Source: Betaproteobacteria bacterium (GTDB lineage: Bacteria; Pseudomonadota; Gammaproteobacteria; Burkholderiales; Burkholderiaceae_F). From it: a stretch of DNA of 64,000 bases. The translations under genes were made by a program, and so were the position numbers. Below the pieces are notes generated by a model. It was not told the origin of the DNA, made no database searches, and saw only the letters and a list, made by a program, of their open reading frames with translations. Shown one piece after another: positions 6,045 through 37,652 of this stretch. The DNA is taken from assembly GCA_005882215.1 (NCBI GenBank), contig VBCK01000117.1, positions 1 through 64,000 of the forward strand, written 5' to 3'. Position 1 is the stretch's first letter. Each line of letters starts with the position of its first letter.

Positions 6045-6755
6045 ATGGATTCTAGCTTCCGGATCGCGCCTTCGATCCTTTCCGCGGATTTTGCCCGCCT
6101 CGGAGAGCAGGTTCGCGACGTGGTCGAAGCCGGTGCCGACTGGATTCACTTCGACGTGATGGACAATCATTACGTGCCGAACCTGACGATCGGGCCGGTG
6201 GTCTGCGAGGCGATCCGGCCGCACGTGCAGGTTCCGATCGATGTGCACCTGATGGTGACGCCGGTCGATGCCCTGGTGCCGATGTTTGCGAAGGCCGGCG
6301 CCAACATCATCACGTTTCACCCGGAAGCCGTTCATCACGTGGACCGTACGCTGGCGCTGATCCGCGACCAGGGCTGCAAGGCCGGACTGGTGTTCAATCC
6401 GGCCACGCCGCTCGGATGGATGGACCACGTGATGGACAAGCTCGACCTGGTCCTGCTGATGTCCGTCAACCCGGGATTCGGCGGACAGTCCTTCATCACC
6501 GAAGCGCTGAACAAGCTGTCCGACGCGCGGGCCCGGATCGATGCCTGGGGCCAGGCCACGGGCCGCACGATCCTGCTCGAAATCGATGGCGGCGTGAAGG
6601 TCGACAACATCGGAGCGATCGCGGCGGCCGGCGCCGACACCTTTGTGGCCGGCTCGGCGATCTTCGGCTCGTCGGACTACAAGGCCACGATCGGCGCGAT
6701 GCGCAACGCGATCGCCGAATCTCGCCGCAACGCGATGCGCCGGCACAGTGTGTGA
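6045..6755 (+). CDS. rpe: ribulose-phosphate 3-epimerase
   Basis: A 236-residue TIM-barrel epimerase interconverting ribulose-5-phosphate and xylulose-5-phosphate in the pentose phosphate pathway. Metal-binding and catalytic signatures are [37 protein letters not shown] and EIDGGV near the C-terminus. The ATG at 6045 is preceded at six bases by the strong GGAGGAGG (6031-6038), favouring it over the TTG at 6039. First gene of a rpe-gph-trpE run that is conserved in betaproteobacteria. Confidence 0.95.
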
Positions 6756-6784
6756 GAGCTTAGTGCGCGAGGCGATGCCGCGCG

Positions 6785-7483
6785 ATGGCTGAGCGTGATC
6801 GGCTGCTTGCCGTGCTGATCGATCTGGACGGCACGCTGATGGACACCGCGCCGGACCTGGCCGAAGCGGCCAACCGGATGCGGGCCGATTTCGGCCTGCC
6901 GGCGCTGCCGGCCGCGCGCGTCGCGCGCTACGTCGGCAAAGGCGCGGACGTGCTGGTACACCGGAGTCTGACCGACCGGATGGACGGGGAAGTGGCGCCG
7001 GAGCGCTTCGTGCCGGCGCGCGCCGCCTTCGATCGCTCCTACCACGCGGTCAACGGCCGGGCTTCGGTGGTGTTCGAGGGCGTGCCACAGGCGCTCAAAC
7101 GCATGCGCGAGCGCGGTTGGCAACTCGCCTGCGTGACGAACAAGCCGCAGCAGTTCACGTTGCCGCTGCTGCAAGGAGCCGGCCTCGCTTCGCTGCTCGA
7201 TGCGATCGTTTGCGGCGACGAGGTGCAGCACCGCAAGCCACACCCGCAGATCGTGCTGGAGGCCTGCAGCCGCCTGGGCGTGGCGCCGGCGCAGGCCGTG
7301 ATGATCGGCGATTCGGTCAACGACGTGCTGGCCGCGCGCGCGGCCGGCGTGCGGGTGGTGTTGGTGGAAAGCGGCTACAACGAGGGCGAATCGGTGTCTT
7401 CGCTCGCGGGCGAGCCGGGGGTCGATGCTATAGTGCCCGGCCTGATCGACGCGGCCCGCTGGCTGGACCAGATGACGTCCTGA
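6785..7483 (+). CDS. gph: phosphoglycolate phosphatase (HAD superfamily)
   Basis: A 232-residue HAD phosphatase that removes phosphate from 2-phosphoglycolate. Motif I is DLDGTLMDTAPDL, motif II lies in CVTNKP, motif III at HRKPHP, and motif IV in MIGDSVNDVLAARAAG. It has the family's VGKGADVLV cap segment. It lies between rpe and trpE, the usual betaproteobacterial arrangement, and is probably cotranscribed with both. Confidence 0.92.
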   Translation: MAERDRLLAVLIDLDGTLMDTAPDLAEAANRMRADFGLPALPAARVARYVGKGADVLVHRSLTDRMDGEVAPERFVPARAAFDRSYHAVNGRASVVFEGVPQALKRMRERGWQLACVTNKPQQFTLPLLQGAGLASLLDAIVCGDEVQHRKPHPQIVLEACSRLGVAPAQAVMIGDSVNDVLAARAAGVRVVLVESGYNEGESVSSLAGEPGVDAIVPGLIDAARWLDQMTS

Positions 7484-7498
7484 TCGGGTGGGCCAGCG

Positions 7499-9010
7499 AT
7501 GATGACCGAACTCGAATTCCGCGCCCTCGCCAGGGAGGGCTACAACCGGATCCCGCTGATTGCCGAAAGCTTCGCGGACCTGGACACGCCCCTCTCGCTG
7601 TACCTGAAGCTGGCGCGCAACCAGGGCCCCAGCGCCAACTCGTTCCTGCTCGAGTCGGTCGTCGGCGGCGAACGCTTCGGGCGCTATTCGTTCATCGGAC
7701 TGCCCGCCCGCACGGTGTTGCGGGCAACGATCGGTGACGGCGATGCGCGCGGCCATCGCACCGAAGTCATCACCGACGAACGGGTGGTCGAGGAAGATCG
7801 CGGCGACCCGCTGGCATTCATCGAGCGCTACGCAGCGCGCTTCAAAGTCGCGCTGCGGCCCGGATTGCCGCGCTTTTGCGGGGGCCTGGCGGGCTACTTC
7901 GGCTACGACACCGTGCGACTGATCGAGAAGACGCTGGCGCACACCAAACCCGATGACCTGGGCCTGCCCGACATCCACCTGATCCTGACCGAGGAGCTGG
8001 CGGTCATCGACAACCTGACCGGACGCGCCTACCTGATCGTGTACGCCGACGCGTCGCAGCCGGAAGGATATTCGCGCGCGCGCGAACGGCTGCGCGATCT
8101 GCGGGCCCGCCTTTCCCGGCACGTGGAGCCCCCGCACACGCGCGCCAGCGTGCGCCGGCCCGAGCACCGCGAATTTGCGCGCGACCAGTACCTGGCCGCG
8201 GTACGGCGCGCCAAGCAGTACATCGAAGCGGGTGACATTTTCCAGGTCCAGATCGGCCAGCGGATCAGCAAGCAGTTTGCCGATGCGCCGCTGTCGCTGT
8301 ACCGCGCGCTGCGGACCCTGAACCCGTCCCCCTACATGTACTACTACGACCTGGGCGATGCGTACGTGGTGGGTGCCTCGCCTGAGATCCTGGTGCGCGC
8401 CGAAACGCGCCAGAGCGAACGCGTGGTCGCGATCCGTCCGCTGGCGGGCACGCGCCCGCGCGGCGGCACGCTCGAGCAGGACGCGGCGCTGGCGGAAGAG
8501 TTGCTGGCGGACCCGAAAGAGCGCGCCGAACACCTGATGCTGATCGACCTGGCGCGCAACGACATCGGCCGGATCGCACGCACCGGCACGGTCAAGGTGA
8601 GCGAGCAGATGGTGATCGAGCGCTATTCGCACGTGATGCATCTGGTCAGCCACGTCGAGGGCACGTTGCGCCCCGGAATGGGCAATTTCGATGTGCTGCG
8701 TGCCACCTTTCCGGCCGGCACGCTGTCGGGAACGCCCAAGGTGCGCGCGATGGAGATCATCGACGAGCTGGAACCTGTGAAGCGCGGAATCTACGGCGGC
8801 GCGGTCGGCTACCTGAGCTTCGCCGGCGACATGGACCTGGCGATCGCGATCCGCACCGGCATCGTCAAGGGCAACGTGTTGTACACGCAGGCCGCCGCCG
8901 GCATCGTGGCCGACTCGGTGCCCGAGTCGGAGTGGCGGGAGACCGAGGCCAAGGCGCGCGCGGTACTGCGCGCCGCCGAGCAGGTGGAGGACGGGTTCGA
9001 GTCCGAGTAG
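7499..9010 (+). CDS. trpE: anthranilate synthase component I
   Basis: A 503-residue chorismate-using enzyme that makes anthranilate with ammonia or glutamine-derived ammonia from TrpG; first step of tryptophan synthesis. The chorismate-binding domain is seen in IRPLAGTRPRGG, ADPKERAEHLMLIDLARNDIGR, TFPAGTLSGTPKVRAMEIIDELEP and YTQAAAGIVADSVPESEW. The length is usual. It starts 15 bp after the gph stop. Its normal downstream partner trpG is not adjacent: an 8.4-kb segment lies between them. Confidence 0.96.
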   Translation: MMTELEFRALAREGYNRIPLIAESFADLDTPLSLYLKLARNQGPSANSFLLESVVGGERFGRYSFIGLPARTVLRATIGDGDARGHRTEVITDERVVEEDRGDPLAFIERYAARFKVALRPGLPRFCGGLAGYFGYDTVRLIEKTLAHTKPDDLGLPDIHLILTEELAVIDNLTGRAYLIVYADASQPEGYSRARERLRDLRARLSRHVEPPHTRASVRRPEHREFARDQYLAAVRRAKQYIEAGDIFQVQIGQRISKQFADAPLSLYRALRTLNPSPYMYYYDLGDAYVVGASPEILVRAETRQSERVVAIRPLAGTRPRGGTLEQDAALAEELLADPKERAEHLMLIDLARNDIGRIARTGTVKVSEQMVIERYSHVMHLVSHVEGTLRPGMGNFDVLRATFPAGTLSGTPKVRAMEIIDELEPVKRGIYGGAVGYLSFAGDMDLAIAIRTGIVKGNVLYTQAAAGIVADSVPESEWRETEAKARAVLRAAEQVEDGFESE

Positions 9011-9162
9011 CCGGCTAAGCGGTAGCCGCAAATCCCTGTCGGGTTTGAGCGTCAAATTGCGTCTTGCCCTCGAGGCCCTCGAAGGGCGTCGGGCCGAGCT
9101 GGGCGGCGCGCCGGCGACCTGACCAGGTGCCGGAGGCGGAGCGACAGGGAAAGGGCAGGACA

Positions 9163-10314
9163 GTGATTGATTTTCGCGAAGTGCGGCTGCGATCGAATCC
9201 GCGCTTTCGCCTGGTACCGTTCGACCGGCTTGCGCCATCGGACCTGGATGCGTTCCGGAGTCTGAGCGAGGATCCGGACTTCTTCGGAATCCTCGTTCCA
9301 CCGGAAGGCTCCGTTCTGCCGGTCAAATCCGTTTCGCGCGACGCGGCGCTGCTGTACCTCTCGCTGCGAAAGCCTGCCTGCCTGCCACACCTCCTGGAGA
9401 ACCTGTTCGGTGGCGACGTGGGCGAGCGGGTTCGCACGTTGATCCTGGATGGCGTGTTCGAGATCGAACAGTCCGGGAATTTCGTGTCGGGCGCAGCCGC
9501 ATTAGCGCCGTTTACCTATTCGGAGACTGCCGAACCCACCTCGCTTCTGGCCCAGCTCTGCGAGGACGCGATCAGGTACGCCGCCGCGCTGGAGCTGCTG
9601 CCAGTGCACGACCTGGCGTTGCGGCTGTATCTTTTCAACACTGCGCCGGGCGAGCCGGCGATGCATCGGCGCTTCTGCGACGACGACCGGCTGCTCGGGT
9701 TTGTGCTCGCTGACGATGCGATCGCCCGCTTGTTGCGCTCGCGCTGGCGGCGCGAAACGATCGGCGACTCCTGGCTTGCCTGGAACGGCGAGGCCTCGGC
9801 GAGGGCGCCGGAATACAAGCTGTATGTCAGTCCGACGCTGGACCATATGCCCGCAGTCTTCGAACTCGCGGTCGACGCCTTCGCAAAGGCTCAGTGCACG
9901 CACTTCAAGCTGGGGCGGGGAGCGTTCGGTCTGCTGCGTCCCGACAAGCTGGTCGCTTATTTTTCCGACCTGGACTCGCTGCAGCAGGCGGCAGAGTTGA
10001 TTCGCAGGTCCGCGGCGGGTGCAGTAGCGCAGGGGGTGCCGTTCACCGCCCCGATCGATTCCGATGGACTGTTGTCCTGGGGCATGGATCCGCCCCGATT
10101 CGAGCAGGTTTTGCAGTCGCAACAATTGCAGAGTTGGCGCCAGTGGCTCACCGGCCGGATTGCTGTCTACGTGCTCGCGGGCAGGGAAGCCGGCACCGAC
10201 GTTCATTCCTTCATCCGCAACCGGATCGAACTGGACGGAGTCGACCCGGTGTCCTGGACCCCGAACCTGGCAATCTGGCGTGGACCGGTCGGAACCGAGC
10301 AGGGGGCGGCTTGA
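9163..10314 (+). CDS. putative stand-alone phosphoSer/Thr lyase-like protein of a lanthionine synthetase system
   Basis: A 383-residue protein. Residues about 218-307 resemble the lyase domain that opens class III/IV lanthipeptide synthetases: YKLYVSPTLD (218-227) parallels the family's WKIHVSAT-type strand, then HFKLGR (247-252), RPDK (259-262), a YF strand, PFTAPIDSDGLLSWG (293-307). Such lyases remove phosphate from pSer/pThr to leave dehydroamino acids. A HopA1-type protein of class V lanthipeptide loci is an alternative. Residues about 10-105 look like a small winged-helix module. The GTG start at 9163 has AAGGG eight bases upstream; an in-frame TTG at 9064 adds an unrelated tail. Its stop overlaps the next gene's start. 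The role is inferred from pattern and neighbour, not from an alignment. Confidence 0.6.
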   Translation: MIDFREVRLRSNPRFRLVPFDRLAPSDLDAFRSLSEDPDFFGILVPPEGSVLPVKSVSRDAALLYLSLRKPACLPHLLENLFGGDVGERVRTLILDGVFEIEQSGNFVSGAAALAPFTYSETAEPTSLLAQLCEDAIRYAAALELLPVHDLALRLYLFNTAPGEPAMHRRFCDDDRLLGFVLADDAIARLLRSRWRRETIGDSWLAWNGEASARAPEYKLYVSPTLDHMPAVFELAVDAFAKAQCTHFKLGRGAFGLLRPDKLVAYFSDLDSLQQAAELIRRSAAGAVAQGVPFTAPIDSDGLLSWGMDPPRFEQVLQSQQLQSWRQWLTGRIAVYVLAGREAGTDVHSFIRNRIELDGVDPVSWTPNLAIWRGPVGTEQGAA

Positions 10315-12686
10315 GTATCGACTGCGAACTTGTGCTTTCGCCGGACGTGCGCATCGAACCGGTCCTGGAGCTCTCGCCCGACCTGCGAGCGAAGATCGAT
10401 GCGTCTGACCAGGACTTCACAGTGACACGCCGGCGCGCACGCGCCACCTCGCGCGTGGTGGACAAGGACAGCGCCGAACTGTTGCAGAAATTTCGCGTGC
10501 CGACCCGCATCGTCGATGCTGTCCTGTCGTTCGCCGGCGAGCGGGGACTCCATCCGGAGTCGACTCTCGAGCAGGCCTACCCGGTGCTTGGCCGGCTGTA
10601 CCGAAGCCGGTTCCTGGTGCCCGCGGACAGCGACGCGGCCAGACCCATCGAAGGGCAACTCGAACCCGGGGACGTCGTCGATGGGTTTCGACTGATCCGT
10701 TGCATCCAAATCTTCGAAGACAACGAAGTGTTCGTGGCGCGAGATGACGCCGGCCGCTATGCGGCAGTGAAGTTTTACCGAGAGCCAAGTCCGGACCAGA
10801 TCGCCATGCTTCAGGGCGAAGCGGGCCTGATGGGGCGCGCCGGCGGAGCCCGCGCCCCGCAGGTGCTCGGCCTGACACAGGTTGGTTCCGGCCTCGCGCT
10901 GGCGGCTGAGTGGGTGTTCGGGGACGACGCGCTGGCCGCGGCCGAATCGCTGCGCGGCCGGCAGGGCTCTCGAAGCGATCACCCATTGCTCGCGCTGTGC
11001 GCTGAGGTCGCTGCCGCGTTCGCCGACGTTCACGAGTCGGGTCTGCTGCATGGCGACGTTCACCCTCGCAACGTGCTGGTCGAGAAGTCGGGAACGGTCC
11101 GGCTGATCGATTTCGGGCTGGCGCGCGAAATCGACGTGCCCAGCGACGGGAATCTGCGCGGCGGCGTCCCTTTCTATTTCGACCCCGAGTTTGCCCGAGC
11201 GCAGCGCGACCAGGGGGTCGTGGCCGCCAGTTGCTTGGCAGAACAGTACTCGGTGGCCGCTCTGATCTACCAGATGTGGACCGGCGTGCATTACCTGGAC
11301 TGGAGCCTTGAACGCGAAGCCATGCTGCGCCAGATCGTCGAGGCCGAACCCGTCCCGTTCCAGGCGCGCCGCGTGCCGCCTTGGCCTGAGCTGGAGCAGA
11401 TCCTGCGCCGGGCGTTGCACAAGGATCCCGGGCAGCGCTTTCCGGACCTGCGCGCCCTGACCCAGGCGTTAAGCGCCCTACTGCCGCAGGCGCAGGAGCG
11501 CGACAGGCAGGCCGCATCCGTGTACCGCGAACCGGCACGGGCTGCCGACTTGGTCGAGCGGGCGCTGAAGCGCTATCGGCTAGGGGGTGAGGCGCTGCGC
11601 GAAGGGCTGCCCGATGCCCCACGAGCTTCGATCAACTACGGCGCCGGCGGCATCGCGTACGCGCTGCTGCGGATCGCGCAGCGGCGCCAAGATGCGAGAC
11701 GGTTGGCTCTGGCTGATCTCTGGTCCCAGAAGGCCTACGCGCTAGCGACCTCGGACGATGCCTTTTACAGCGCCGCGCTGCAGATCGATCGAAACTCGGT
11801 GGGCGAACGTTCGCTGTTTCATTCGGCCGCGGGCTTGCATGGCGTGCGGGCCCTGGTGTCGGCCGCGCAGCGCGATGCGGTAACCGCCAATCGAGCGCTG
11901 CGCGCCTTTGTCCAGCATTCGCTGGGACCGAATGACAGCGTCGATCGAGCTTCGCGACTGGATGCCGTAATTGGCCGGGCGAGCCTTCTGCTCGGGTGCT
12001 CCGAGCTGATCGAGACGATCCCGCAATCGCGGGAATTCGACCTGGCGGGCATTCGTGCGCGGGGCGACGAGCTTGCCACCGAGGTTCTCGGCTTTCTCGA
12101 GTCCAGCACGATCGAATCCTCGGAACACTTGGCGACGCTGGGCGTCGCGCACGGCTGGGGCGGACTGGCCTTCGGCCTGCTGCGTTGGGCGCGCGCCACG
12201 GGGCGCGACCCCGCGGCTTCGGTGCGGTTGCGGCTCGACGAGCTGGCGACGCTGGCCGAACCGCACGGCGTGGGAGCGCGCTGGCCGGTTCAGTGCGGCG
12301 GATCCACGTTTCTGGATGGATGGTGCAACGGTGCGGCCGGATTCGCGATGCTGTACGCACTGGCCTCCCGGATATTGAGCGAGCCGCGCTTCGCGGAGCT
12401 CGCGGAGCGCGCCGCGATCAGCGCATGGAACAGCGAGATCCCTCTCGGCACGCTGTGTTGCGGTCAAGGCGGCATAGCCTATGGATTGCTGGCTGTTTAT
12501 CGCATCACGGGCTCGGAGCACTGGCTGCAGCGCGCCCGCGCGTGTTTGCGGCGGGCTGCGGCCGACCGCTCGCCTCACTTTCTCCCGGACGCGCTGTACA
12601 AGGGCGCCGTCGGCCTCGCGCTGTTGGCCGAGGAGCTGCAATCGCCCGAAACGGCGGCGATGCCACTGTTCGAGCCGGGCGCCTGA
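10311..12686 (+). CDS. protein kinase-LanC fusion, putative lanthionine synthetase subunit
   Basis: A 791-residue fusion. The N-terminus (about 35-105) is a small helical/winged-helix-like module. The kinase domain (about 125-390) has VK154, catalytic HGDVHPRN (247-254, D249 and N254) and metal-binding DFG (267-269), so it looks active. The LanC-like cyclase (about 430-775) has the repeated glycine motifs of the alpha-toroid (NYGAGGIAY, VAHGWGGLAFG) and zinc ligands C672 in WCNG and C716/C717 in LCCGQGG. Three Cys replace the common Cys-Cys-His set. It would phosphorylate Ser/Thr and close thioether rings; the missing lyase step is offered by the preceding gene. The TTG start overlaps that gene's stop and follows AGGGGGCGG. 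The order kinase-cyclase resembles class III/IV synthetases lacking their lyase domain. Confidence 0.82.
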   Translation: MSIDCELVLSPDVRIEPVLELSPDLRAKIDASDQDFTVTRRRARATSRVVDKDSAELLQKFRVPTRIVDAVLSFAGERGLHPESTLEQAYPVLGRLYRSRFLVPADSDAARPIEGQLEPGDVVDGFRLIRCIQIFEDNEVFVARDDAGRYAAVKFYREPSPDQIAMLQGEAGLMGRAGGARAPQVLGLTQVGSGLALAAEWVFGDDALAAAESLRGRQGSRSDHPLLALCAEVAAAFADVHESGLLHGDVHPRNVLVEKSGTVRLIDFGLAREIDVPSDGNLRGGVPFYFDPEFARAQRDQGVVAASCLAEQYSVAALIYQMWTGVHYLDWSLEREAMLRQIVEAEPVPFQARRVPPWPELEQILRRALHKDPGQRFPDLRALTQALSALLPQAQERDRQAASVYREPARAADLVERALKRYRLGGEALREGLPDAPRASINYGAGGIAYALLRIAQRRQDARRLALADLWSQKAYALATSDDAFYSAALQIDRNSVGERSLFHSAAGLHGVRALVSAAQRDAVTANRALRAFVQHSLGPNDSVDRASRLDAVIGRASLLLGCSELIETIPQSREFDLAGIRARGDELATEVLGFLESSTIESSEHLATLGVAHGWGGLAFGLLRWARATGRDPAASVRLRLDELATLAEPHGVGARWPVQCGGSTFLDGWCNGAAGFAMLYALASRILSEPRFAELAERAAISAWNSEIPLGTLCCGQGGIAYGLLAVYRITGSEHWLQRARACLRRAAADRSPHFLPDALYKGAVGLALLAEELQSPETAAMPLFEPGA

Positions 12687-12797
12687 CGGTCGAGCCAGGC
12701 AGCCGTGAGGACGCGTGCCTTACCTGTCGGATCTGCGAGCAAATAGTCGTCTGAGTAGTCGCAAACACTCATATCAACATGCAACGGAGGCTGGGAA

Positions 12798-13175
12798 ATG
12801 GCGGATTTCAAGATCCACGATTTGACGGTCTTGCTCCAACCAGGATGGGCCGATCAGACGGTCGGGCAGCCTCCCACCCGATACCCGGTGTCGCTTGATC
12901 CGGGGCTTTGCGGAGGAAGCAACAAGCCGGATCTTTGCGGAGGAAGCAACAAGATCTGTCAGGCAAGCCAGTTGGTCGTGGATATCGCCTGTGTTTCCGT
13001 CGAAGAGTTGAAGGTTCTGAAAAAGCAGCTTGCGCAGGCGCTCGAAGTGGTGGCACGCCGCGAATTCGAGCTGCAGTCGGACGCCGGGGCGGTCGAGCCG
13101 ATGGAATCCGGAACGATCGATGCGCTGTCCGTAGCACTCAAGAGGATCCCAACCAAGAGGATCCCAACGAAGTAG
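12798..13175 (+). CDS. small Cys/Ser repeat protein, candidate substrate (precursor) of the lanthionine synthetase
   Basis: A 125-residue protein of unknown family, starting at ATG with GGAGG (12786-12790) seven bases upstream. It lies 111 bp after the kinase-LanC gene on the same strand. Residues 37-43 and 46-52 repeat LCGGSNK exactly, followed by ICQAS; Cys are at 38, 47, 54 and 65, with Ser at 41, 50, 57 and 67. After that comes a charged helical stretch (about 66-95) and a C-terminal tandem KRIPT KRIPT K. Cys/Ser spacing of this kind could form thioether rings, so I infer a lanthipeptide-type precursor. Unusually, the Cys/Ser part is central rather than C-terminal. It could instead be an unmodified partner protein. 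Confidence 0.6.
   Translation: MADFKIHDLTVLLQPGWADQTVGQPPTRYPVSLDPGLCGGSNKPDLCGGSNKICQASQLVVDIACVSVEELKVLKKQLAQALEVVARREFELQSDAGAVEPMESGTIDALSVALKRIPTKRIPTK
12906..12953 (+). repeat. two copies of a 21-bp repeat, 27 bp apart, in the candidate precursor
   Basis: Two identical 21-bp copies (12906-12926 and 12933-12953) encode LCGGSNK twice with a nine-residue period. The DNA identity, including third positions, points to recent duplication of the presumed core unit. Confidence 0.9.
13140..13169 (+). repeat. tandem 15-bp repeat at the end of the candidate precursor gene
   Basis: Two 15-bp units differing only at the last base encode KRIPT twice, followed by a final Lys codon and the stop. A second, independent internal duplication in the same short gene. 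Confidence 0.9.
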
Positions 13176-13256
13176 TCGTCGGCGAAGGCGCAATCGGGGG
13201 TCGGTCCGGCAAACTGCCGTCGTACCTTGCGGTTACCTGGCGATCCAGCCCGGTAA

Positions 13257-16200
13257 TCAGCCTCCTGCCAGTTCGTGCTGCCTCAGTTGCTGCTCCAGTT
13301 CGGTCCAGGGGCGCTTGTAAAAGGAACTGACCGCCGGCTGCTCGTTGAAGGCGCGCCGGGCCGCGTTGCGCATTTCGCGCGCAAGCGGCAGCTCTCCGGC
13401 CTGCAGTGCGCACAAGCCTGTGCGCGCGCGCAGCGCCGCGATTCCCGGACTGTTCGAGGCAAACTGGCCTTTGAACTCGTTCAATGCCGCCATCAGCCTG
13501 GCCAGACCCGCCTTCGGCTGCCCGGTGTTGCACTCGACGACGGCCTGCAGTCCAGCGAAACCGCTGGGGGGAAAGGTGACGATTATCAGCTCCTTGCGGC
13601 GCGTTTCGGGCACGCCGGCGACCCATTGATGGATCAGCCTGGCAGCGTCCTCAAATTGCTTCGATTCCACCTTGATCAGGACGTCCAGCGCGAGCGCCTC
13701 CCAATGCGGATCCCAGCGGGAACTGAGGACGAACGGTTGGCCCTCGCTGATCTGCGTCTTCACGTCCATCAATCGGCGCGCGGCCGACACCAGGTCTGCG
13801 GCCATGATCCGCGACTGGATCGCGTAAACCTCGGGGTCTAGAATCGCGTCCCTGCGTACGCCGCTGGCATGCAACGCGGCATGGCGAGCCCTGTAGATCT
13901 CATCCCACAGCCGGGTGGCCTCTTCGTGCTCGCCACGGTCGTCGGCCCATTGGGCGTAAAAGTACATCGCGCGGTACTTGGCTCCAAAAACCGGCGACCC
14001 TTCATCTTGATTGGATTGCTTTTCCACTAGCACCGGCAGCGCGCGGCGCATCAGCGGAGCGGCGCGCTCGACCTCCCCGTGCTGCCAATACGCGGTCCCG
14101 GCCACCAGGTCCGCGAACGCCCGCAATGTGGGGGGCACGTCCGAGCCTTTCCGGTCGAGGGCGGCAGCAATCTGCTCGATTCTGGGAATGCCGAAGTCCG
14201 GGAGGGCGCCGGTATCGTTCAGACGCTGGACCAGATACAACTCGAGCGATGCCGCTTCCAGGTCGTCCGGACCCGAGACCCGGCGCATGTCGGCCAGCAG
14301 CCGATCGAACATCGCACGGCCGGCACCGACTTCGCCGAACTGGATCAGATTTTGCGCGAAGAACTGCCGCTTCGCGATCGCTTCAGAGGAGAGCGCTCCA
14401 GTCAGATCTTGAGTCAATTTGACGGCGGCGTCGAATGTCGATTGGGCCGCCGCCGGATCCTTGCGATCCCACAGCAGTAAAGCGGCGCGATGCAGCAGGA
14501 TGTCCGCGAACACGGGGGAACGACGGTCGGTTACGGTCGAAAGGAGTTCTTCGGCCCGGTTCAGCTGATCGGACGCGAGGGCGAACTTGCCTCGGGCCAG
14601 CAACACGCGCGCCAAGGCGGTGTGTAACTCCGCGTGCTCCGATGCGGGCAGCGAACCGGCCTGGCGGATCGCCTGATTCAGCGTCTCTTCGGCCAGGTCG
14701 TTGCGCATTTCCTGCACCTGGGCACGCGCAAGAATCCGTAATGCCTGCACGCGCTGGCGGTCGTTGCCGGAGGTTGCGTTCAAGGCCTCCAGCTGACCGT
14801 TGACCATCTCGATTGCGTGCGAAGAGTCCCCAATGTCGGCAAAAATCGTCCCGGCAATTCCCATCATCTCGGCCCGGAGGGCAGGCCGTCCTTCGTAGCG
14901 GGCCTGGATGCGGCGTGCCCCGCGTTCGACCAGCGCGTCGGTCGGAAGCTGCCGCAGGTACAGCTTGTTCGGATCGTCCCCATGATTCAGGTCGAACAGC
15001 CCGATCACGAAATCGCGTATTTCGTCGGCCCGCTCCGCCTGCGCCTGGGCGCGCTGCGCCTCGTGCGTGGCGCGCTTGGCCTGCTCGACCGCCACGCCGA
15101 AGCCGATCAGCACCGCCACTAGCGCGGCCGACGCCGCCACCACGTACTCGCGATGGCGGCTGATGAAGCGACTGGCCCGGTACCAGCCACTGTCCGGACG
15201 CGCCAGCACCGGCTCGCCGTTCAGGTGGCGGTCCAGGTCGTCGATCAGCGCATCGACGGTCCGGTAGCGCGACTCCGGCTCCCGGCGCAGCGCCTTGGCC
15301 AGGATCGTGTCCAGGTCGCCGCGCAACTGCCGCTGGGTGGGCCTGGCCGCCACGCGGGAGCTCGCTAGCGGCGCCAGGTCCTCGGCGGCCGCCGCCTCCA
15401 GTTCCGTCAGCGAAGCGCCGGTGGCATGAAATGGGCGAGTCCTCGTCAGCATCTCGTACAGCAGCACGCCCAGCGAATAGACGTCCGCTGCCACTGTCAC
15501 TGGCTCGCCCCGGATCTGTTCGGGGGAGGCGTAGCCCGGTGTCAGCATCCGGCCGGCGGCCCCCGTCAACAGGGTCATTCCGTCCGCCTCATCGCTGAGC
15601 AGCTTCGCGATGCCGAAATCCAGCAGGTGAGCGGTCCCGTCGACGCCCACCAGCACGTTCGACGGCTTCAGGTCTCGATGCACGACCAGGTGGCGATGCG
15701 CATAGGCCACCGCACCGGCGACCTGCTTGAACAGCACCAGCCGCTCGCGCAGACTGAGCGAATGCTGGAGCACGTATTCGTCGATCGGCACGCCCTCGAC
15801 GTACTCCAGCGCCAGGTAGGGCCGACCTTGTTCGTCGGTGCCGGCGTCGTACAGGCGCGCGATATTCGGGTGTGCCAGCCGCGCCAGGATGTCGCGCTCG
15901 CGCGCCAGGCGCGCGTTCAGTTCGGGCACCCAGCTCACATGGGGCAACTTCAGCGCGACCGCGCGGTCGAGCCCACCGTCGACGCGCTGAGCCAGCCACA
16001 CGGACCCCATGCCGCCGACGCCGATCTGCCGCTCCAGGCGGTATGGGCCGATCCGCATGCCCTCCCGCTCGGTTGCCTGACTCTGAGCGGCGGCCCTGAG
16101 GTGACCGAGCCCCGGGCGCGTCAGGAACCGGTCGTCCGGCCGGTCCGCCTCGGCCAGCAGTTGCGCCAGCGTGTTGCGGTGCCCGGCGTCGGACCCGCCT

Positions 16201-16298
16201 AGGGAAGCAAGCCAGCGGCTGCGTTCGGACGGATCCAGCGCGAGCGCTTCGTCCAGCAGCCGGCTGAGCGTTCGGAGTTCCGCAGGACCGACAGCCAT
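13257..16298 (-). CDS. membrane-anchored Ser/Thr protein kinase with C-terminal helical repeats
   Basis: A 1013-residue Hanks-type kinase. A short N-terminal helical region (about 1-80) precedes the kinase domain (about 82-350) with GVGGMGSV, VALKLP, catalytic HRDLKPSN and DFGIAK, all intact. One transmembrane helix follows (about 385-405, AASAALVAVLIGFGVAV), then a long alpha-helical, TPR-like region to the end. The kinase is cytoplasmic, the repeat region likely extracytoplasmic. It lies 102 bp downstream of an ECF sigma factor gene on the same strand, a common pairing, so the kinase may act in the sigma factor's pathway. It converges on the candidate precursor gene, leaving 81 bp. Confidence 0.85.
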   Translation of the reverse strand: MAVGPAELRTLSRLLDEALALDPSERSRWLASLGGSDAGHRNTLAQLLAEADRPDDRFLTRPGLGHLRAAAQSQATEREGMRIGPYRLERQIGVGGMGSVWLAQRVDGGLDRAVALKLPHVSWVPELNARLARERDILARLAHPNIARLYDAGTDEQGRPYLALEYVEGVPIDEYVLQHSLSLRERLVLFKQVAGAVAYAHRHLVVHRDLKPSNVLVGVDGTAHLLDFGIAKLLSDEADGMTLLTGAAGRMLTPGYASPEQIRGEPVTVAADVYSLGVLLYEMLTRTRPFHATGASLTELEAAAAEDLAPLASSRVAARPTQRQLRGDLDTILAKALRREPESRYRTVDALIDDLDRHLNGEPVLARPDSGWYRASRFISRHREYVVAASAALVAVLIGFGVAVEQAKRATHEAQRAQAQAERADEIRDFVIGLFDLNHGDDPNKLYLRQLPTDALVERGARRIQARYEGRPALRAEMMGIAGTIFADIGDSSHAIEMVNGQLEALNATSGNDRQRVQALRILARAQVQEMRNDLAEETLNQAIRQAGSLPASEHAELHTALARVLLARGKFALASDQLNRAEELLSTVTDRRSPVFADILLHRAALLLWDRKDPAAAQSTFDAAVKLTQDLTGALSSEAIAKRQFFAQNLIQFGEVGAGRAMFDRLLADMRRVSGPDDLEAASLELYLVQRLNDTGALPDFGIPRIEQIAAALDRKGSDVPPTLRAFADLVAGTAYWQHGEVERAAPLMRRALPVLVEKQSNQDEGSPVFGAKYRAMYFYAQWADDRGEHEEATRLWDEIYRARHAALHASGVRRDAILDPEVYAIQSRIMAADLVSAARRLMDVKTQISEGQPFVLSSRWDPHWEALALDVLIKVESKQFEDAARLIHQWVAGVPETRRKELIIVTFPPSGFAGLQAVVECNTGQPKAGLARLMAALNEFKGQFASNSPGIAALRARTGLCALQAGELPLAREMRNAARRAFNEQPAVSSFYKRPWTELEQQLRQHELAGG

Positions 16299-16400
16299 CG
16301 ACGCGACGCGCTCTGCTCGTTAACCGTTAAGGACGCGAAGCGGGTCCGAAAAACGACACGCGTTCCTGGGAAGCGCTTCGTCTGATCGGAAGCAGCCGGC

Positions 16401-34028: not shown

Positions 34029-34720
34029 ATTCGGAAGAAGCAAAGCGCATCAACTCCGCACGATGAGCGCGGGGTTGGTGCTGGGTTGTGATTGCATTTT
34101 TTCGAGCTCTCAGCATTTGAGAACGGCGAACGCGGTCGCATGAATCCACGCCGGCGTTCCGCGAGGAGCGGCGGCAGGGTTATAGGATCAAGCGACTAAG
34201 TGCATGTGGTGGATGCCTTGGCGATCACAGGCGATGAAGGACGTGGCAGCCTGCGAAAAGCCCCGAGGAGTCGGCAAGCAGACTTTGATCCGGGGATGTC
34301 CGAATGGGGAAACCCACCCGCAAGGGTACCCGCACCTGAATCCATAGGGTGCGAGGAGCGAACCTGCTGAACTGAAACATCTCAGTAAGCAGAGGAACAG
34401 AAATCAACCGAGATTCCGAGAGTAGTGGCGAGCGAAATCGGACCAGCCAGCGCGTTTTAGCTGTCGTTCTAGTGGAACGGCCTGGAAAGGCCGGCTATAG
34501 CGGGTGATAGCCCCGTACACGAAAGACCGGCAGTGGAACTGAGCGCGCGATAAGTAGGGCGGGGCACGTGAAATCCTGTCTGAAGATGGGGGGACCATCC
34601 TCCAAGGCTAAATACTCGTGATCGACCGATAGTGAACCAGTACCGTGAGGGAAAGGTAAAAAGAACCCCGGGAGGGGAGTGAAACAGATCCTGAAACCGC
34701 ATGCATACAAACAGTCGGAG

Positions 34721-34785
34721 CCCCAGCTTTAATCGCCTTCGGGCTTACTCAATTTAAGGTTGAGTGAGGACGATTAGAGCTGGGG
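34721..34785 (+). other. extended helix 25 (IVS-like) in 23S
   Basis: At the position of 23S helix 25, CCCCAGCT pairs with AGCTGGGG and TAATCG with CGATTA, with an inner ACTCAA/TTGAGT pair. The helix is much longer than in E. coli. Such extensions are known sites of intervening sequences removed by RNase III; whether cleavage occurs here is unknown. Confidence 0.6.
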
Positions 34786-35204
34786 TCACGGCGTACCTTT
34801 TGCATAATGGGTCAGCGACTTACATTCTGTGGCGAGCTTAACCGTGTAGGGTAGGCGTAGCGAAAGCGAGTCCGAATAGGGCGTCCAGTCGCAGGGTGTA
34901 GACCCGAAACCAGATGATCTATCCATGGCCAGGCTGAAGGTGGGGTAACACTCACTGGAGGGCCGAACCGACTACTGTTGCAAAAGTAGCGGATGAGCTG
35001 TGGTTAGGGGTGAAAGGCCAAACAAATCTGGAAATAGCTGGTTCTCCCCGAAAACTATTGAGGTAGTGCCTCGCGTATCACTCCAGGGGGTAGAGCACTG
35101 TTATGGCTAGGGGGACATGGCGTCTTACCAAACCATGGCAAACTCCGAATACCTGGAAGTGCCAGCGCGGGAGACAGTGCACCGGGTGCTAACGTCCGGA
35201 CACG

Positions 35205-35239
<35 letters not shown>

Positions 35240-36131
35240 AAATATCGGCTAAGTGGGAAACGAAGTGGGAAGGCTAAGACAGTCAGGAAGTTGGCTTAGA
35301 AGCAGCCATCCTTTAAAGAAAGCGTAATAGCTCACTGATCGAGTCTTCCTGCGCGGAAGATGTAACGGGGCTAAGCCGGTAACCGAAGCTGCGGGTGTGG
35401 ACACGCAAGTGTTCACGCGGTAGGGGAGCGTTCTGTAAGCCTGTGAAGGCGGTTCGAGAGGACCGCTGGAGGTATCAGAAGTGCGAATGCTGACATGAGT
35501 AGCGTTAAAGCGGGTGAAAAGCCCGCTCGCCGAAAGCCCAAGGTTTCCTGCTCTACGTTCATCGGAGCAGGGTGAGTCGGCCCCTAAGGTGAGGGCGAAA
35601 GCCGTAGCTAATGGGAACCAGGTCAATATTCCTGGACCGATACCAAGTGCGATGGGGGGACGGAGCATTGCAGGTCATCCGGGTGTTGGATGTCCCGGTT
35701 TCTGACCGTAGGAGGCCAGTAGGCAAATCCGCTGGCGTATCTCCGAGGGAAAGGATCGAGCGGCGTAAGCCGCGAAGTGACTGAATGTGCTTCCAGGAAA
35801 AGCCTCTAAGCTCCAGCTTGGTACGACCGTACCGAAAACCGACACTGGTGGGCGAGCTGAATATGCTCAGGCGCTTGAGAGAACTCGGGAGAAGGAACTC
35901 GGCAAATTGACACCGTAACTTCGGAAGAAGGTGTGCCCCAGTAACGTGACAGGAGAAACACCTGAAGCGTGACAGGGCCGCAGAGAATCGGTGGCTGCGA
36001 CTGTTTATTAAAAACACAGCACTCTGCAAACACGAAAGTGGACGTATAGGGTGTGACGCCTGCCCGGTGCTGGAAGGTTAAGTGATGGGGTGCAAGCTCC
36101 TGATCGAAGCCCCAGTAAACGGCGGCCGTAA

Positions 36132-36632
36132 CTATACGCGGACATCGGCTGGTATCTGGCCGGATTCGCGGACGGGGAAGGAAGCTTCAACGTGAGCTTC
36201 CGGCCGCGCGACGATTACGCGGTTCCCTGGAAAGTGTCACTGTGCTTCAACATCTCACAGCGTGATCCGACAGTCCTGTCGCTCTGCAAGCGACACCTGG
36301 GCTGCGGGACCATGCGGCAGCGAAGCGACGGCGTTTGGTATTACGAAGTGAACAACTTCGAATCCATCGTCGGCAACGTGATCCCGTTCTTCGGCCGATT
36401 CGGCTTTCTGTCGGCCAAGAAGAAGCGGGATTTCGCGAAATTCGTGAAACTGTCCGAGATGATGAAGCAAGGGGCGCATCTGAGCGCTGAAGGGATCGAG
36501 CAGATCCTGGACGTCCGCCGCGACATGAACGACGGCGGCAAGCGCAGATACGCAGACGAAGATATCAGAAGCACGCTCAGGAATCCTCAGAGACTGTACG
36601 CCAGACCGTCCCGGGCAGCCGGGAGCGGATGA
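36132..36632 (+). CDS. LAGLIDADG homing endonuclease frame in the 23S intron, start codon unclear
   Basis: About 166 codons open from just after the exon's TAA (36129). The catalytic LAGLIDADG motif reads WYLAGFADGEGSF and begins at codon 7, upstream of the first usual start codon (GTG at 36192), which would remove it. The remainder fits single-motif homodimeric enzymes: QRDPTVLSLCKRHLGCG, YYEVNNFESIVGNVIPFF, LSAKKKRDFAKF, HLSAEGIEQILDVRRDMN. The enzyme would cut intronless 23S genes at the insertion site. No ATG, GTG or TTG precedes the motif, so a non-standard start (ATC at 36144 or CTG at 36156) or loss of function must be assumed. Confidence 0.75.
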   Translation, partial: LYADIGWYLAGFADGEGSFNVSFRPRDDYAVPWKVSLCFNISQRDPTVLSLCKRHLGCGTMRQRSDGVWYYEVNNFESIVGNVIPFFGRFGFLSAKKKRDFAKFVKLSEMMKQGAHLSAEGIEQILDVRRDMNDGGKRRYADEDIRSTLRNPQRLYARPSRAAGSG

Positions 36633-36718
36633 GACAGTCCGAACTGTGCGGCAACGCACAGAGCGCGGCAGAAATGGCTGCGCCCGGTCGGGCAATGGCT
36701 CGATCGAGTAACAAATTG
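36136..36718 (+). other. group I intron in 23S helix 69 (site L1917)
   Basis: 583 nt inserted between TAACTAT and AACGGTCCTAAGG, which together make the conserved helix 69 sequence. The exon ends in U and the intron in G, as group I introns require. A P7-like pair joins GACTGT (36592-36597) and ACAGTC (36634-36639), the guanosine-binding helix. The site equals the Cbu.L1917 site known from Coxiella. An endonuclease frame fills most of the intron and overlaps the 5' P7 strand. I could not identify a convincing P1 pairing. Confidence 0.8.
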
Positions 36719-36779
<61 letters not shown>

Positions 36780-36849
36780 CGATGGCCACACTGTCTCCTC
36801 CCGAGACTCAGCGAAGTTGAAATGTTTGTGATGATGCAATCTCCCCGCG

Positions 36850-36884
<35 letters not shown>

Positions 36885-37038
36885 CTTTGCATTGGACTGT
36901 GAACCGATCTGTGTAGGATAGGTGGGAGGCTTTGAAGCGGGGCCGCTAGGTCTCGTGGAGCCGTCGTTGAAATACCACCCTGGTTTGTTTGCGGTTCTAA
37001 CCTTCGCCCGTTATCCGGGCGGGGAACAGTGCATGGTA

Positions 37039-37070
<32 letters not shown>

Positions 37071-37205
37071 CGTAACGGAGGAGTTCGAAGGTACGCTAAG
37101 CACGGTCGGAAATCGTGCTGATAGTGCAAGGGCATAAGCGTGCTTAACTGCGAGACTGACAAGTCAAGCAGATGCGAAAGCAGGACCTAGTGATCCGGTG
37201 GTTCT

Positions 37206-37261
<56 letters not shown>

Positions 37262-37287
37262 TCCTCCCAAGAGTTCATATCGACGGG

Positions 37288-37330
<43 letters not shown>

Positions 37331-37335
37331 TAGCC

Positions 37336-37368
<33 letters not shown>

Positions 37369-37513
37369 TGGTACGTGAGCTGGGTTTAAAACGTCGTGAG
37401 ACAGTTTGGTCCCTATCTGCCGTGGGCGTTGGAAATTTGAAGGGGGCTGCTCCTAGTACGAGAGGACCGGAGTGGACGAACCTCTGGTGTACCGGTTGTC
37501 ACGCCAGTGGCAT

Positions 37514-37584
37514 CCCTGCTCCGCGCTAGCGCGCTACGCAGGGCAAGCTTTGCACCCTGCGTAGCGCGACAGCGCGAAGCAGGG
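37514..37584 (+). repeat. 71-nt hairpin repeat at the truncated 3' end of 23S
   Basis: Two 30-nt arms (37514-37543 and 37555-37584) are inverted copies with three mismatches, around an 11-nt loop CAAGCTTTGCA. Both arms begin CCCTGC and end GCAGGG. It is related to the repeat in the 16S-23S spacer and stands exactly where the 23S sequence stops. Confidence 0.85.
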
Positions 37585-37652
37585 CTTCCGAGTTGGATCT
37601 TTTTGGCGCAGCGCCTGAACGGTTGCTGCAGCCGAAAGGTCGTCCGTCTTCA

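Follow-up and report, generated by a model that had tools for sequence, protein, structure and literature searches.

We examined a 64,000-nucleotide stretch of contig VBCK01000117.1 from a Betaproteobacteria bacterium (Burkholderiales; assembly GCA_005882215.1), referred to here as the window, in which three consecutive genes on the forward strand probably form a minimal but complete cassette for modification of the lanthipeptide type, in which the tasks are divided in a new way. Gene 1 (9163–10314, +; GTG start, 383 amino acids) encodes a predicted stand-alone phospho-Ser/Thr lyase of HopA1/LanY fold, gene 2 (10311–12686, +; TTG start, 791 amino acids) a synthetase joining a RiPP recognition element (RRE)-like domain, a kinase and a LanC cyclase, and gene 3 (12798–13175, +; ATG start, 125 amino acids, GGAGG upstream) the putative substrate or precursor. 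The stop codon of gene 1 and the start codon of gene 2 share the letters TTGA (10311–10314). An initial annotation of the window had placed the three genes and this overlap in the same way and had described the same make-up, but it overlooked the N-terminal RRE-fold domain of the synthetase.

The host looks betaproteobacterial by its 16S sequence, whose nearest matches in the plasmid collection belong to Burkholderiales, with Cupriavidus at 92% as the best. Cassettes are present in the window genome, on plasmids of Cupriavidus oxalaticus X32 and Paenibacillus peoriae HS311 and at the actinobacterial loci L002, L030, L031 and L062, so that three phyla carry the cassette (Pseudomonadota, Actinomycetota and Bacillota). 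A further actinobacterial locus, L061, holds a reduced copy, and the lyase of L062 reads with a frameshift near 8030, which is either a sequencing error or decay.

The stand-alone lyase

No match to the lyase was found in Pfam at E up to 1, HopA1 (PF17914) included, or in NCBIfam, and searching PHROGs and PDB chains by sequence alone was no more useful, so we turned to comparisons of fold and of profiles. When the AlphaFold model was compared with the PDB by Foldseek, the best match was LxmY of the lexapeptide dehydratase (E = 7e-6), and other matches included HopA1, the class III/IV synthetases SalKC, ThurKC and CuvL, and SpvC. Furthermore, a profile of the lyase family reached a Pfam-verified HopA1 protein from another genome (Pfam E = 1.9e-18) with E = 2.4e-4, and hhalign of the family against that protein gave E = 3.8e-7.

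CaoY has R187, K219 and R229 as catalytic residues, and its Y236 is conserved as well (PMC9486802). Comparison with homologues and with CaoY aligns these to K219 (9817–9819), K249 (9907–9909), R259 (9937–9939) and Y266 (9958–9960) of the window lyase, all on the + strand. The four residues are unchanged across six lyase homologues; the last three are spaced exactly as in CaoY, 10 and 7 residues apart, and do not vary in three HopA1-type proteins either. The first position is Lys in the cassette lyases, SpvC, LanL and OspF, and Arg in CaoY and the HopA1-type proteins. Both the fold and the catalytic residues of the HopA1/OspF-type phospho-lyases were found, which supports the prediction that the 383-residue protein is a phospho-Ser/Thr lyase of HopA1/LanY fold. 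The initial annotation had called it lyase-like and had proposed a structural comparison with LanL/LanKC lyase domains and HopA1, in which a lack of likeness would count against the idea; that comparison was run and the likeness was found. With the Lys of OspF and LanL set in a scaffold of HopA1 type, the cassette lyase would bridge two lyase lineages.

The synthetase

Two regions of the synthetase match Pfam above the cut-off. The Hanks-type Ser/Thr kinase domain (residues 142–377; 10734–11441, +; Pkinase E = 1.9e-16) has K154, E170, HGDVHPRN and DFG, and K154, E170, D249, N254 and D267 are invariant across six homologues. The LanC cyclase domain (residues 440–785; 11628–12665, +; LANC_like E = 1.4e-24) spans profile positions 6–346 of 350. 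Its H614, C672, C716 and C717 are invariant in the same way, giving a complete zinc site whose ligand triad (C672, C716 and C717) is of the Cys-Cys-Cys kind named CCG type (terminology of PMC11251773). The fusion of an intact kinase with LanC, as first described, is thus upheld. Among named proteins the best match was the class IV LanL, at 135.5 bits over residues 166–751 (cut-off 650).

Residues 1–122 (10311–10676, +; AlphaFold pLDDT 83) were modelled as strands followed by three helices, the winged-helix pattern of RREs. The best PDB matches of this model in Foldseek were TigE, TbiB1, PqqD, ThcOx and MibB (probability 0.97–1.00, E = 0.004–0.11), and at these modest E-values we read the domain as having an RRE (PqqD-like) fold. 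It would share this predicted fold with the RRE proteins PqqD, TbiB1, TigE and MibB, but it is too divergent for detection by sequence and is fused to kinase-LanC. In Cupriavidus oxalaticus the same RRE-type domain is also fused, within the same cluster, to a 2-oxoglutarate (2OG)-Fe(II) oxygenase, which shares 67% identity within the RRE domain compared with 22% outside it. According to a structural paper from 2023, none of the class II–V core enzymes has an identifiable RRE (PMC10604976); going by that paper, the domain would, if correctly assigned, be the first RRE of any kinase-based class, and engineering would gain a portable recognition module. The Cupriavidus cluster (L024, 14393–20203) combines this RRE-oxygenase fusion with a LanB dehydratase of class I type, a hint that one cluster may have two routes of dehydration as well as hydroxylation.

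The small protein

A leave-one-out profile built from the small proteins of the other systems ranked gene 3 first of the 1,029 reading frames in the window (E = 2.9e-4; next 0.52), and pairwise similarity ranked it first of 340 small open reading frames. These two ranks exclude a chance reading frame, and the small Cys/Ser repeat protein of the initial annotation is as such a real gene. In Pfam and NCBIfam nothing matches the small proteins above the cut-off.

Gene 3 begins with a strand motif, MADFKIHDLTVLLQPG (12798–12845, +), a putative RRE-binding site whose pattern is conserved in other small proteins (e.g., MADFKIHDLTV and MPVYRIKDLAI). A Cys/Ser core follows (12906–12998, +) with four Cys and two copies of LCGGSNK, encoded by an exact 21-nucleotide repeat at 12906 and 12933. 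Next is an amphipathic helix motif, VEELKVLKKQLAQALEVV (12999–13073, +), which a pattern search found in all nine small proteins compared (another example being LKKQLAQALEVV). An N-terminal motif, a middle rich in Cys, Ser and Thr (usually Cys-rich) and a C-terminal amphipathic helix form a recurrent architecture, in which the middle is highly variable: LCGGSNK repeats in the window, three repeat units in Paenibacillus and GCGCTCSCTCSCTCSCTS in L031. The protein ends in RIPTKRIPTK (13140–13172), a tandem duplication encoded by a 14-nucleotide repeat at 13140 and 13155, which falls outside the proposed core.

The small protein of L062 (285 amino acids, 31 Cys, 68 Ser/Thr) was missed by the full profile and came to light through its motifs and position; its Cys sit in CGxTxS-type repeats. 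In L062 the stretch 6562–8212 takes in this protein and the frameshift of the neighbouring lyase. The profile also revealed a second, previously overlooked small protein in L031, and the two paralogues there (9904–10257 and about 9514–9823, minus strand) have Cys strictly alternating with Ser/Thr, an arrangement to which ordinary ring sizes are hard to fit.

Where LanC is complete, the small protein has at least three Cys per unit, and up to 31, beside Ser/Thr. In L061, where most of LanC is lost, the small protein (a weak match to the full profile, E = 0.033) is Cys-free and keeps 14 Thr and the helix, a coincidence that would agree with the cyclase acting on Cys.

Lanthipeptide precursors have an N-terminal leader and a C-terminal core. 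Here the Cys-rich segment is internal and conserved elements flank it on both sides, so gene 3 does not encode a plain leader-core peptide. The initial description of gene 3 as a repeat precursor, which its Cys/Ser repeats and its homologues beside the same enzymes agree with, is to be corrected on this point.

Distribution and genomic setting

The cassette is rare: 200 genomes from the order and 399 from the phylum held no further case. When 369 genomes of the class were searched for kinase-LanC, most of the matches were generic kinases and the window's own genome alone gave a full-length one; viral and phage collections yielded no relative. Distances among lyases correlate with those among synthetases (r = 0.90), and the window enzymes are nearest to those of the actinobacterial L002, not those of Cupriavidus. 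This suggests that the cassette genes moved together by horizontal transfer.

A congeneric genome (G1469) has the order rpe-gph-trpE-ECF-trpG-trpD and lacks a segment of ~7.4 kb that in the window lies between trpE and the extracytoplasmic function (ECF) sigma factor gene (approximately 9011–16400); the cassette is thus accessory. A tetratricopeptide repeat (TPR) kinase is encoded inside this segment (13257–16298, −). The idea that the TPR kinase and the ECF sigma factor are parts of the system found no support, since no such pair was seen beside the other copies and the ECF gene persists in the congener, where the cassette is absent. In other family members the stretch between trpE and trpG, which looks like an insertion site, holds a threonine-aldolase-like gene (identified from sequence) and other genes.

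Elsewhere in the window, the 23S rRNA gene (34186–37601) is ~490 nucleotides longer than the bacterial model, and a reading frame inside it (36192–36632, +) matches a LAGLIDADG endonuclease (E = 1.5e-8). From the extra length and this frame, the additional stretch is probably an intron or intervening sequence; it matched no Rfam intron family.

Proposed function

We think it probable that the cassette is sufficient for lanthipeptide-type modification, in the following manner. The RRE would bind the N-terminal strand motif of the small protein, while the C-terminal helix may dock on the synthetase. The kinase would phosphorylate Ser/Thr of the middle segment, and the separate lyase, acting in trans, would remove the phosphate by beta-elimination to leave dehydroalanine or dehydrobutyrine. 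The zinc-bound LanC would then add nearby Cys thiols to close (methyl)lanthionine rings, and the conserved outer parts could be trimmed by general proteases or kept. Dehydration by the kinase and the lyase followed by ring closure is, judging from the genes, the most likely course, and thioether formation, as the initial annotation proposed, is what we infer for the cassette.

This proposal is based on the fold and catalytic residues of the lyase, the intact kinase and zinc-bearing LanC and the conserved pairing of the two genes. It is further based on the RRE fold and its reuse on the Cupriavidus oxygenase, the correlated distances of lyase and synthetase, the homologous small protein beside the enzymes, and the L061 case, in which most of LanC is lost and the small protein is Cys-free.

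Several points weigh against it. The lyase model was built from four sequences and has a mean pLDDT of 74, and the RRE was assigned by predicted fold alone, with E-values of 0.004 and up. The leave-one-out profile test works in five of the six loci, failing for the Cupriavidus small protein, and the argument from L061 is a single case. Docking of the C-terminal helix is a supposition of the proposal itself. Lastly, neither a transporter nor a dedicated protease was seen in the cassette, as had been pointed out initially for a transporter and a leader protease; the product could be a stapled protein and not a cleaved peptide. Taking this further, we tentatively raise the possibility, which we find doubtful as a whole, of a cross-phylum new class of thioether biosynthesis in which an RRE-guided kinase-LanC and a trans-acting lyase make stapled proteins that keep both flanks, not small cleaved antibiotics, in some cases with room for dozens of rings, the L062 protein having 31 Cys.

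The alternative that survives best, though we consider it unlikely, is that the small protein is phosphorylated and dehydrated with no lanthionine being made. The dehydroamino acids would stay open or be capped by an external thiol, and the LanC domain would behave as do LanC-like proteins that attach thiols of other kinds. Kinases apart, the LanC part has its best relative in LanCL1, which the PDB annotates as a glutathione S-transferase, and the L061 version exists without most of LanC. However, the number of Cys follows the state of LanC, from at least three per unit beside a complete domain to none beside the truncated one, and the zinc site is of the CCG type that belongs to peptide cyclases. 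Ring closure by LanC thus remains our preferred reading.

Comparison with known systems

The layout of the cassette fits none of classes I–VI as described in the literature. In those descriptions class III/IV synthetases are single chains, and class V divides the work between a separate kinase of APH type and a HopA1-type lyase. The view that a split lyase with a fused kinase-LanC is unlike the described classes was borne out, the layout being conserved in unrelated genomes. No account of such a layout was found in the literature, where coverage was thin for subscription journals, so earlier publication is possible. If the proposal is correct, a further synthetase layout is added to the lanthipeptides, one that searches relying on Pfam or NCBIfam would miss, since neither the lyase nor the small proteins reach the cut-off of any of those models.

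The class V systems CaoK-CaoY and LxmK-LxmY also partner a separate HopA1-fold lyase with a kinase, and K249, R259 and Y266 have their counterparts in CaoY. The cassette could on these grounds be a divergent class V cluster, with its kinase merely fused to LanC and no separate layout, but this we regard as improbable. The class V kinase is a separate protein of the APH family (PF01636), whereas the cassette kinase is Hanks-type (Pkinase E = 1.9e-16 against 1.2e-06 for APH) and, in each of the full copies, is joined to RRE and LanC. The lyase, despite its fold and remote homology, falls short of the HopA1 Pfam model by which LanY is recognised, and has Lys at the position of Arg187 in CaoY. Moreover, genuine clusters of HopA1 lyase, APH-like kinase and stand-alone LanC form a distinct type (L063, 3911–8723; L032, 6471–11474). 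These clusters adjoin a trypsin-like protein with C-terminal Cys/Thr repeats (VTRPAVC, VTRDPxxC) and may represent a system akin to class V whose substrate is fused to a protease.

Very improbable, finally, is a kinase-based signalling or anti-phage system with the small protein as regulator and not substrate, to which the matches of the kinase part to PADLOC kinases such as PD-T4-6, the missing exporter and the accessory locus might point; the defence-system reading was dropped, as those matches are limited to the generic kinase domain, and RRE, LanC, lyase and a Cys/Ser/Thr repeat partner would be left unexplained.

The lanthipeptide-type reading can then be set beside the single-chain classes. 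In class VI, LanKCb of streptococci has kinase and cyclase in one protein, like the cassette synthetase, but its lyase and cyclase domains are truncated and its products miniature (PMC10676316), whereas the cassette has a full-length cyclase and a separate, complete lyase. Class III LanKC (ThurKC, SalKC) has the kinase, LanC-like cyclase and lyase fold that the cassette also has, but in one chain and without cyclase zinc ligands, which here are intact. Class IV LanL likewise has a kinase followed by a LanC with zinc ligands, and Lys at the K219 position. It differs in its in-chain lyase, in place of which the cassette has a separate lyase gene and the synthetase an RRE, and the synthetase's score of 135.5 bits lies well under the 650 set for LanL. 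The initial annotation had seen an intermediate between class III/IV and class V, and the split lyase and fused kinase-LanC agree with this; as the synthetase carries an RRE in addition, however, the cassette is not simply halfway between them.
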